From a virus: 33,015 nucleotides of DNA. The stretch lies in IMG/VR virus record IMGVR_UViG_3300032050_000494, positions 1 through 33,015 of that record; one strand, given 5' to 3'. The position numbers were made by a program, and so were the translations under genes. Below, in pieces: positions 15,853 to 24,252 of this stretch. A model generated the notes under the pieces. That model did not search any database and was not told the DNA's origin. It was given only the letters and a program-made list of their open reading frames with translations. The number at the start of each line of letters is the position of its first letter. Positions within the stretch are counted from its first letter, which is position 1.

Positions 15853-16122
15853 TTATTTTTTATACATATAACCGTAGCATCTTCTTGTTACTATGGGTGC
15901 GCCAGGTAGTCTCTTTCTAATCCTTCTCATGTGTACATCTATTGTCCTTGACAAAACTACCACTCCATTCTCCCATATATTTTCAAGCAGCTCATCTCTG
16001 CTTATTATTCTGTTAGGATTACTTTTAAGGTATTTGAACAGCATGAACTCCTTCCTTGGAAGTAATACTTTTGCTCCGTTATGCTCTATTGATTTGTCTT
16101 CGTTGTTGATTATATAGTCCAT
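15853..16122 (-). CDS. Orphan OmpR/PhoB-type winged-helix DNA-binding protein
   Basis: 89 residues, almost entirely a Trans_reg_C domain: LPRKEFMLFKYLKSNPNRII, then SRDELLENIWENG, the recognition helix region SRTIDVHMRRIRKRL, and the wing RRCYGYMYKK. Response regulators normally carry a receiver domain before this; none is present here. A free-standing effector domain in a phage may act as an early-gene repressor or hijack host two-component promoters. It is encoded just downstream of the small RNA candidate, in the middle of the leftward arm, and has the leader CTAAACTAA-ATG shared with the next gene. Confidence 0.75.
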   Translation of the reverse strand: MDYIINNEDKSIEHNGAKVLLPRKEFMLFKYLKSNPNRIISRDELLENIWENGVVVLSRTIDVHMRRIRKRLPGAPIVTRRCYGYMYKK

Positions 16123-16133
16123 TTAGTTTAGAT

Positions 16134-16253
16134 TTACCAGTTTAAAAAGTCGTCACCCTTGTAGTCCGGATGCTCTTTTTTCATTTCAGCAATTGCATTC
16201 ACCCATAAGTAGCTGATGATTGCTACAATTCCAAATAGTATAAAGTATATCAT
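16134..16253 (-). CDS. 39-residue membrane protein
   Basis: A short ORF: MIYFILFGIVAIISYLWVNA (one membrane helix) followed by a polar tail AEMKKEHPDYKGDDFLNW. The leader ATCTAAACTAA-ATG is identical to that of the next gene, supporting translation. It lies downstream of the small RNA terminator, so it may need its own promoter or read-through. Function unknown; small inner-membrane proteins of phages can act in superinfection exclusion. Confidence 0.58.
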   Translation of the reverse strand: MIYFILFGIVAIISYLWVNAIAEMKKEHPDYKGDDFLNW

Positions 16254-16291
16254 TTAGTTTAGATTTTGGGTTGTATTCGTACTATATGTAC

Positions 16292-16388
16292 TAAAATAAG
16301 CCGGGAATTAAACTCCCGGCCATTATACTGCCGCCCCCTTTAATAATCATTAACTTACTAACAGTTTCAAATAATTATAAGCGGCAGT
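16292..16388 (-). ncRNA. Candidate structured small RNA with own promoter and terminator
   Basis: Directly after a minus-strand promoter box (16392-16399) the transcript would begin with ACTGCCGC (16388-16381), which pairs perfectly with GCGGCAGT (16334-16327). Inside this, ATAATTATT pairs with AATGATTAT (one G-U), and inside that AACT with AGTT, giving one nested hairpin. The RNA ends in a strong terminator: arms GCCGGGA and TCCCGGC (16320-16300) followed by TTATTTTAG. Predicted length is about 97 nt, with no ORF worth naming. I recognise no known RNA family. It could instead be the 3' UTR of the Rad52-type gene, whose stop is 13 nt upstream. Confidence 0.55.
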
Positions 16389-16391
16389 CTG

Positions 16392-16399
16392 CAAAGATA
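16392..16399 (-). promoter_or_regulatory. Promoter -7 box for the small RNA
   Basis: TATCTTTG on the minus strand, a perfect TAnnTTTG box, lying 3 nt before the first paired base of the RNA hairpin and immediately after the stop of the Rad52-type gene. The same octamer forms the two divergent promoters of the control region (23156-23163 and 24180-24187). A clear TTTG at -33 is not visible. Confidence 0.55.
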
Positions 16400-16400
16400 A

Positions 16401-17033
16401 TCAAAATTGTTTAGCGAATGCCTGACGGAAAGACGCATGAGTCTTTATCTTATCGGGTAGCGTCTTGGCCCATTCGATTGCTGCTGCTTTATCCTTCATT
16501 ACTGCCAGCTTTTGTAGTGCCTCTTGCAATGGATGTACTCCGTTGACTACTCCATGTAGGTCATTAATGTACTGTGTTAAGTCCCATATCTTATTACCCT
16601 TATCGTCTGCCGGATATGGATACTGCTTACCGTTGAACTCCTTGCTGCCTGCGTTAAGGTCTACGATGTCTAGGTCGTACAGAAACCTACCAACTCCGAA
16701 GTTAACAGCTGCACGTTTGAAAGCGTCGGATGCTGCTGACTTCTCAGCCTCAAAGTTACCTTCTGAGCCTACATCCTGGCGTTCAATAATAGTACCGTCC
16801 GGCATTACTATACCTATCGAACAGTAGATGCTTCCCTTGATGTCGTAGTACTTTTTAGTCCATCCGTAGGAGCAGTACTTATCTAGGGTATCCATCGCCT
16901 GACGGGCATCTATATAGGCTACGCAGGTGCATTTGGTATTGCCCTTGTTGAATGATTGCACGCGCCATTGGTAAGGCATTGGCTTAGATAGATTGGTGAT
17001 TAGGTCTGTTAGATAGATGCTGTTTTCTGTCAT
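16401..17033 (-). CDS. Rad52-family single-strand annealing protein
   Basis: 210 residues. The region about 20-125 matches Rad52/Rad22-type annealing proteins: YQWRVQSFNK, CVAYIDARQAMDTLD, WTKKYYDIKGSIYCSIGI, then EGNFEAEKSAASDAFKRAAV and NFGVGRFLYDL, the best-conserved block of the family. The C-terminal region is helical and probably contacts partners. It would anneal single strands made by the RecE-type exonuclease at 14726-15514. Together with the SSB-like protein and RusA this gives a full recombination set in one operon. A promoter and small RNA start right after its stop. Confidence 0.82.
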   Translation of the reverse strand: MTENSIYLTDLITNLSKPMPYQWRVQSFNKGNTKCTCVAYIDARQAMDTLDKYCSYGWTKKYYDIKGSIYCSIGIVMPDGTIIERQDVGSEGNFEAEKSAASDAFKRAAVNFGVGRFLYDLDIVDLNAGSKEFNGKQYPYPADDKGNKIWDLTQYINDLHGVVNGVHPLQEALQKLAVMKDKAAAIEWAKTLPDKIKTHASFRQAFAKQF

Positions 17034-21457: not shown

Positions 21458-21515
21458 GGTAAAGTTTTAGATTGATTAATTTAAAAATTAGTAAAGTGAT
21501 TTGTTGACTTTGTGT

Positions 21516-21551
21516 AAAATAAAAAAGCCGGTCAGCCTAACTGTTACCGGC
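21516..21551 (-). terminator. Rho-independent terminator (leftward)
   Basis: Arms ACCGGC (21551-21546 region) and GCCGGT (21527-21532) with an inner CAG/CTG pair form a strong stem. On the minus strand it is followed by TTTTTTATTTT (21526-21516). It follows the lipoprotein gene and separates it from the rest of the early arm. Confidence 0.8.
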
Positions 21552-21575
21552 TATCTTCACTCTAACACAATTCTA

Positions 21576-23163: not shown

Positions 23164-23189
23164 GGTATAAATGTATTACAATCATATAA

Positions 23190-23227
23190 ATATTTTCTAA
23201 ATTTTAAAACTATTTTTTAGAAAATAT
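23190..23227. repeat. Perfect 12-bp inverted repeat, possible operator
   Basis: ATATTTTCTAAA (23190-23201) and TTTAGAAAATAT (23216-23227) with a 14-bp spacer, located 26 bp upstream of the early -7 box. Its place, around the -33 region and just upstream, fits a dimeric repressor or activator site. Confidence 0.65.
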
Positions 23228-23237
23228 CTAACTAAAA

Positions 23238-23268
23238 TAATTAGCATATAATACTAAATTAATTAGCA
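23238..23268 (+). repeat. Direct repeat TAATTAGCA, 22-bp spacing
   Basis: TAATTAGCA at 23238-23246 and again at 23260-23268, start to start 22 bp, about two helical turns. It sits next to the palindrome upstream of the early promoter, so a protein binding one face of the DNA is possible. Confidence 0.55.
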
Positions 23269-23508: not shown

Positions 23509-24139
23509 ATAACAGCTTCCCCAAATACGGGTCAGCGGACGGGGTAGGGGGGTTATCTCAACCTCCTACGTATTAAATCCCGTTTTAAAACTCGTCATAA
23601 CCGGCAAATGTGTTATTATTTAACAGCTAACCTACCCGGTTTTTTCAAAACCTCATGTGTTTGCGGTGCTGTTATGTAGTGGTGTGGGGGTGTTATTTAG
23701 ACGGGTTTGTGTGCGTTGGGTATGTAGTATGGGTAGGATATGAATAACAGCTAATTTAGGGTTGTTATTTATATCCGTATTATGTGTAGGCGCATAGTAT
23801 CCCCTTAGTACGGGCTGAATTTCGTTTACATTAGTTAAAGATTTATGCCTTATACCGTACGTTGCTACCGTAGTAGTACACCTTCATAACAGCCCTAATA
23901 TCCTGTAAAAGTCTCAAAACTCTTAACAGCTGTTACCTATAAGGGTCTTTATATTCTTTAACCATTTGCTACGCTATCGGGGACACATCCTGTTTATTTA
24001 ACAGTAACTACCCGACGTCTGGGCTTTTGATTGATGTGGTAAACCTACATCTCGTGAAAGCCGTAACTATCTAAGAGGATAGTGCGTATTTTGTTCGTTA
24101 AGAACTTATAAAAAGAACTACATCAAAGATAATAACAGC
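23509..24139. repeat. Clustered TAACAGC repeats
   Basis: ATAACAGC or TTAACAGC at 23509, 23620, 23744, 23886, 23923 and 24132 on the plus strand and at 23675-23668 on the minus strand, plus the variant TTAACAGT at 23998. Spacing is irregular (37-209 bp), more like DnaA-box clusters than classical iterons. By chance a given 7-mer would be expected well under once in such a length. Confidence 0.6.
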
Positions 24140-24203
24140 AAATATTTTAAACAAATTTGTTTTTTCAACACTTTTGTCGTATCTTTGAATCCTCGTGAAA
24201 GCC
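24051..24203 (+). repeat. Direct repeat CTCGTGAAAGCC
   Basis: The 12-mer occurs at 24051-24062 and 24192-24203. Each copy is followed by a hairpin (24066-24083 and 24222-24245). The second copy is at the predicted 5' end of a short transcript. Confidence 0.55.
24156..24187 (+). promoter_or_regulatory. Main rightward (late-side) promoter
   Basis: TTTG (24156-24159), 20-nt spacer, TATCTTTG (24180-24187): a perfect Bacteroidetes primary-sigma promoter. Transcription would begin near 24193, at the second copy of CTCGTGAAAGCC, and meets a terminator only about 50 nt later. Confidence 0.75.
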
Positions 24204-24252
24204 TCGAAAGAGAACTTAATTCCCATCGGTAGTCCTGCTGATGGGTTTTTTT
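24192..24252 (+). ncRNA. Short transcript between promoter and terminator
   Basis: From the predicted start to the T-run is only about 60 nt: the 12-mer CTCGTGAAAGCC, an A-rich middle, and a terminator hairpin. There is no start codon with a useful frame. It may be a small RNA or an attenuated leader that limits read-through into the late genes until an antiterminator acts. Both readings are inference. Confidence 0.42.

Follow-up and report, generated by a model that had tools for sequence, protein, structure and literature searches.

What is the short interval that separates the gene of an annealing protein from the next gene on the minus strand of this phage genome? The window, by which we mean the whole stretch of 33,015 nt analysed here, is a 33-kb virus record of a Bacteroidota phage, whose terminase is less than 30% identical to its matches in phages of Flavobacterium, Cellulophaga and Maribacter. 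The initial annotation saw in this interval a compact small RNA gene made of a promoter box, a nested hairpin and a terminator. All these elements are indeed present on the minus strand, between 16292 and 16399 (Table 1). The question is whether they form an independent gene or belong to something else.

Table 1. Positions of the element and of its neighbours in the window
Feature	Position	Strand	Evidence or remark
Rad52/Erf-type ssDNA annealing protein gene (upstream)	16401..17033	-	Pfam PF04098 2.9e-13; PHROG 1097
TATCTTTG, sigma-A -7-like box	16392..16399	-	followed by CAG, then the stem
Core: bulged hairpin, 62 nt	16327..16388	-	fold, covariance model R1 and covariation
Apical-loop motif GTTAGTAAGT	16353..16362	-	near-invariant across 12 aligned relatives
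3' bulge TTAAAGG	16337..16343	-	family form UUUARNGG, near-invariant in alignment A4
Intrinsic terminator stem-loop, GCCGGGA/TCCCGGC	16299..16321	-	terminator scan; GC-rich stem, then U tract; TTATTTT tail to about 16292
Palindrome GTACATATAGTAC, right-hand motif of the element	16279..16291	-	served as family-finding probe
39-codon ORF, hydrophobic N-terminus (downstream)	16134..16253	-	absent at the equivalent place of L130
Winged-helix Trans_reg_C domain protein gene (next gene)	15853..16122	-	Pfam PF00486 3.3e-18; also after the element in L130

The core hairpin consists of an outer stem of 10 bp (two U-G pairs included), a middle stem and a conserved apical loop, with the bulge UUAAAGG on its 3' side. 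On the minus strand, the outer arm ACTGCCGC (16388-16381) pairs with GCGGCAGT (16334-16327), 46 nt apart, while the middle stem joins ATAATTATT to AATGATTAT with one G-U pair and the apical stem joins AACT to AGTT. The 62-mer has a minimum free energy of -20.8 kcal/mol (z = -4.3), and none of 200 dinucleotide shuffles was equally stable. A GC-rich 8-bp arm pair alone is not rare, as there are two in the window and zero to five in shuffled windows. Hence, what makes the structure significant is the nested fold and, as the deciding argument, its conservation. We rejected the idea that AAAGGGGG...ATG in the window is a Shine-Dalgarno sequence with a small ORF, the relatives having no ATG there. 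Elsewhere in the window, two non-coding sequences, 21512-21568 (-), which holds a GCCGGT/ACCGGC terminator, and 23187-23267, are about 90% identical to their counterparts in L130.

We searched for relatives in several ways. Following the annealing gene led to L005/L130, in which the same hairpin has changed bases which are yet still paired, and a search for the stem pattern contributed L129, L134 and L136. The block of the window is 85.5% identical to that of L136 over 138 bp, in quite different gene surroundings. A scan for the bare arms ACTGCCGC...GCGGCAGT returned at least 120 stretches and was uninformative. A probe independent of the hairpin was provided by the motif GTACnTATAGTAC...CAAAA, which lies at least 33 nt 3' of it. 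This probe reached 15 loci, of which 11 were new. Each locus gave a score with the hairpin's covariance model; the hairpin is thus present in 11 of the 11 new contigs, where model R1 gives E-values from 1e-12 to 5e-7. Several loci come from near-identical phages: after merging, 10 distinct hairpins are left, and R1, itself built from three of them, recovers all 10 (E from 1e-19 to 5e-7). Each record holds one copy.

Searches with R1, in which the positive controls were detected, gave no match in 397 genomes of one flavobacterial family, in 395 genomes of its phylum or in 33 other related viral records. Scanning genome contigs for the loop and bulge pattern gave six matches, all stemless and two of them in one coding sequence, which we attribute to chance. 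With blastn against named phages and plasmids, only matches of the size of a T-arm or due to chance were obtained, and the host is left unnamed for this reason. The initial annotation had recognised no Rfam family, in agreement with our search of the window against Rfam 15, which gave no match at the gathering threshold; the best scores below threshold were 20.4 bits for MicF (threshold 79) and, for the tRNA-like part described below, 13.6 for tRNA-Sec (threshold 47).

In the alignment of the 10 distinct hairpins, which is biased toward structure by having been fitted to the model, 90.5% of the paired cells can pair, against 77.5% after shuffling (none of 500 shuffles as high) and 23-51% when the partners are slid. 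Changes on both sides of a pair occupy 30 cells, against 12.8 after shuffling, with no shuffle as high, and the covariation score of 0.403 (0.182 shuffled) was reached by none of 500 shuffles. The outer stem needs no such fitting, and one can see its changes by eye: C-G and U-A are exchanged in 4 of the 10 sequences, and G-C to A-U and U-A to C-G changes also occur. Compensatory changes, which the initial annotation had proposed to look for in all three stems, thus support the outer and middle ones. The third stem does not behave in this way: its 4 bp are not conserved, and its end pairs are broken in five to six of the 10 sequences. What is conserved at the apex is not a stem but the loop GUUAGUaaGU, together with the 3' bulge UUUAAAGG. 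G-U cells outnumber A-C cells by 24 to 6 in the hairpin and by 11 to 0 in the tRNA-like part. This means that the strand running in the direction of the genes has been selected for folding, as expected of RNA. The claim that this is a real structured RNA element of phages is borne out by the covariation and by this strand specificity, which point to folding of the transcribed strand. It could be objected that such 8-bp arm pairs also form at random, so that a chance hairpin might stand beside an ordinary terminator; the family-wide covariation and the cmsearch E-values of 1e-7 to 1e-19 refute this, and we give it practically no weight.

Does this RNA have its own promoter? In F. psychrophilum, the -7 box of sigma-A promoters lies at -12 to -5 (PMC9723704). 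With this spacing, transcription from the box of the window would start at about 16387, which is one base inside the stem; the stem begins at the transcription start, as had been proposed, only approximately. No -33 TTG is visible upstream of this box, and TANNTTTG occurs about 38 times within the window. The box TATCTTTG is absent from the same place in L130, L134, L136 and L208-L218 and is found here in the window phage only. The conserved combination of a -7 TAnnTTTG at -12 to -5 and a -33 TTG, which would characterise an independent sigma-A small RNA gene, is thus missing. A compact gene with its own promoter is not the design of the family: in most relatives no -7 box is present and the hairpin begins 3-12 nt past a stop codon, so that it probably belongs to the 3' end of the mRNA of the preceding gene. 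The junctions between stop and hairpin in these relatives offer neither room nor consensus for a dedicated promoter.

Judged by its promoter, a better candidate for a small RNA gene than the 16288-16402 element seems to lie at 24180-24250 (+) of the window, where TTTG-N20-TATCTTTG is followed by a terminator (24222-24245) in a unit of about 65 nt. This unit diverges from a TATCTTTG promoter at 24131 (-), and both carry AACAAATTTGTTT.

The element occupies two sites. In the window and in L130 it follows the annealing gene or an adjacent small ORF (in the window, the TGA of the annealing gene is 12 nt ahead of the hairpin), and in the remaining loci it has on one side DnaB with a variable cargo that consists mainly of DNA methylases, and on the other a lysozyme gene of convergent orientation. 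The hairpin is oriented as the upstream gene in 12 of 12 loci, and in 8 of them the gap from stop to hairpin is 3-4 nt, typically 4 nt. The upstream genes are unrelated among loci (DnaB, SNF2/methylase, methylase and others), and despite this the junction TTTAAACTC is nearly identical wherever the gap is 3-4 nt. On the strength of the covariation, of the strand-specific G-U pairs, of the fixed gene direction and of the position 3-4 nt past unrelated genes, we propose that we are dealing with an undescribed family of structured RNAs of Bacteroidota phages which would act as an element of operon 3' ends, with the hairpin as its core and an exchangeable 3' module. We give this reading a probability of about 50%.

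In the window and in L130 the genes downstream are co-directional, so that the element might be taken for a 5' leader or attenuator of the downstream gene (in the window, the 39-codon ORF and the winged-helix gene). However, the next real gene in L136, L208, L215 and L218 is the convergent lysozyme, and there is nothing downstream to regulate. Since several copies, at the lysozyme site, are without a co-directional downstream gene, we rejected attenuation as the common function of the family; as a general explanation it is very improbable, and the window copy alone could have such a role.

The variety of the neighbouring genes suggests another explanation, acting at the level of DNA: the element would be a boundary for gene exchange, a short intergenic homology by which the phage annealing protein and an exonuclease swap cargo such as methylases and other genes. 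Different genes do adjoin the same junction of TTTAAACTC and hairpin, the cargo between DnaB and lysozyme varies on both sides, there are two unlinked sites, and the tRNA-like module is 96% identical within stretches which otherwise share nothing. However, the strand-specific G-U pairs and the compensatory changes reveal selection on a folded single strand and not on sequence identity, and the orientation is fixed relative to the genes. We consider this explanation improbable.

Two observations on the surroundings may be added. In L134 (4520-4873), L209 (1798-2645), L214 and L217, cargo genes follow the tRNA-like module and are flanked by conserved sequences, TGTTATTGATAACG...CGGGCTTGGCGAAG on the left and CTAACTACTGGCTTAACGCAATGCGTACTAATAC...GGCGAAACTTTGG on the right, which resembles a cassette insertion site. 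In L006 and L007, which are relatives free of the element, the annealing gene is followed by a perfect 11-bp hairpin (GTGCTATACGC/GCGTATAGCAC) preceding a gene which resembles a DNA methyltransferase.

The slot 3' of the hairpin is filled differently among the 12 compared loci: it holds a tRNA-like cloverleaf in 8, another tRNA-like fold in 1 and a terminator in 3, namely the window, L136 and L212 with its near-copies, the stem being similar in L136 and L212. The terminator seen initially is thus real in the window, but hairpin plus terminator is not the rule of the family. The initial annotation had named as a refutation of its proposal relatives which lose the stem and keep only the terminator; the reverse is seen, the stem being kept and the terminator replaced.

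The type-A tRNA-like module is about 95 nt long and starts about 2 nt past the hairpin. Its acceptor stem (CCCGGAA/UUCCGGG) has 7 bp and its D-arm, whose loop contains GG, has 3 bp; a 5-bp stem which encloses two small hairpins takes the position of the anticodon stem, and the T-arm, in which two pairs have changed on both sides, has a UUCGA loop. The acceptor stem, the UUCGA T-loop and the GG of the D-loop recur in 8 of the 8 aligned type-A modules. The relatives' module does not have the make-up of a canonical tRNA (cloverleaf, 7-nt anticodon loop, U33), and ARAGORN called neither a tRNA nor a tmRNA in type-A modules. After the acceptor stem, N-C-A is conserved in the aligned copies (L130, L134, L208-L218), which is reminiscent of a shortened CCA end. 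In L211 (3611-3701, +), a different tRNA-like fold with a long arm of the variable type stands behind the hairpin and is called tRNA-Glu(ctc) by ARAGORN.

When a model of the tRNA-like module was run on flavobacterial genomes, genuine tRNA-Tyr genes were among the best matches, with a low score. The likeness to host tRNA-Tyr has a shuffle p of about 0.0005-0.0025, which is suggestive only, because the shuffles were mononucleotide-only and the comparison was picked after the match. No tRNA-like module was found without the hairpin, whereas the hairpin stands without the module in the window, L136 and L212; hence the hairpin is the core. As the flank UCCCGGCUCAUUUU of the terminator in L212 resembles the 3' edge UUCCGGGUCAUUUU of the module in L208, the terminator may be a collapsed tRNA-like module.

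How could an element of operon 3' ends work? Starting from what is observed of it (fold, conservation, covariation, strand, place and module exchange), we infer its transcription, processing, stabilisation and binding partner as follows. The operon mRNA would run into the element, perhaps joined in the window by a short transcript from TATCTTTG. The second module would make the 3' end, either by termination at the hairpin and U tract or by processing or protection of the tRNA type, and the hairpin would cap, stabilise or otherwise mark the end of the RNA, the bulge and the loop being probable contacts for a protein or an RNA. In the window phage, the product left would be a stable 3' RNA of about 97 nt, possibly made from its own promoter as well. 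A specific binding partner of the hairpin is likely because the loop and the bulge are conserved. Against the operon-3'-end reading, the module lies only 2 nt past the hairpin, a closeness that may impede RNase P; the sequence of the loop and bulge seems conserved beyond the needs of a plain stabilising hairpin; and the correctly spaced -7 box of the window would be superfluous for a pure 3'-UTR element.

A serious rival to the operon-3'-end reading is a small RNA that would act in trans (as a decoy, antisense RNA or regulator), with the hairpin and its conserved loop and bulge as the active part. In the window phage such an RNA would have a promoter of its own, and in other phages it would be released from the 3' UTR of the operon mRNA. 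The roles of polymerase decoy, antisense RNA or sponge suggested by the initial annotation are conjectural. The spacing of the -7 box, which starts the RNA at the stem, the conservation of GUUAGUaaGU and UUUAAAGG past the needs of pairing, and the single hairpin per record, kept regardless of the upstream gene, would be well explained; the promoter box, however, is not conserved and has no -33 element, and the RNA has no relation to an Rfam family. More far-reaching, and in our opinion doubtful, is the idea of a new class of phage RNA, made of the hairpin and a tRNA mimic with a rebuilt anticodon arm, which would be released from the 3' ends of replication operons and act in trans, its targets being the translation of the host, tRNA enzymes or a defence directed at tRNAs; the window copy would be a reduced, hairpin-only form.

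There has been little work on the structured RNAs of Bacteroidota phages, and the present family is supported by covariance and has a clear genomic address. A binding partner is predicted from the conserved loop and bulge, and with the tRNA mimic and the terminator found behind the same hairpin nature has provided swap experiments, so that the function can be tested directly. It would be unusual for operons of a DNA phage to end in a tRNA mimic, and the element may mark a hotspot of cargo genes between DnaB and lysozyme. It belongs to no Rfam family, has no match in named phages or plasmids and is absent from the 792 sampled Bacteroidota genomes.

Several known systems can be compared with it. 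The PeSL mobile regulatory cassettes of T4-type phages are intergenic stem-loops linked to modular shuffling, with an early promoter before the stem-loop, and a role as homology for gene swaps has been proposed for them. Our element, too, is a short stem-loop between genes whose location differs among related phages (the annealing/winged-helix and DnaB/lysozyme sites); unlike these cassettes, whose promoter directly precedes the stem-loop, it has no box in any of the relatives and is followed by a 3' module. With the 3' tRNA-like structures of plant RNA viruses and with tmRNA it shares the GG of the D-loop, the UUCGA T-loop, the 7-bp acceptor stem and a replaced anticodon arm, but it belongs to DNA phages, lies at operon 3' ends and has a conserved hairpin ahead; no tag reading frame was recognised in the tRNA-like module. 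The tRNA region of T4 encodes stable RNAs which are not tRNAs, species 1 and 2 (RNA C/D), whose function is unknown. These too are small structured phage RNAs associated with RNA of the tRNA type, but in other hosts and another gene context. Terminators with upstream stabilising hairpins and 3'-UTR-derived small RNAs resemble the operon-end hairpin and terminator of the window, L136 and L212, but the hairpin of our family has a conserved loop and bulge and also occurs without a terminator. The polymerase decoy 6S RNA, of 150-200 nt, is likewise a hairpin broken by an unpaired bulge; ours is only about 60 nt long and has no match to 6S in Rfam. Each ingredient has precedents, be it the small structured RNA of a phage, the terminator, the mobile stem-loop cassette or the tRNA mimic, but we know of no other system in which a conserved hairpin is followed by an exchangeable module, either tRNA-like or a terminator.
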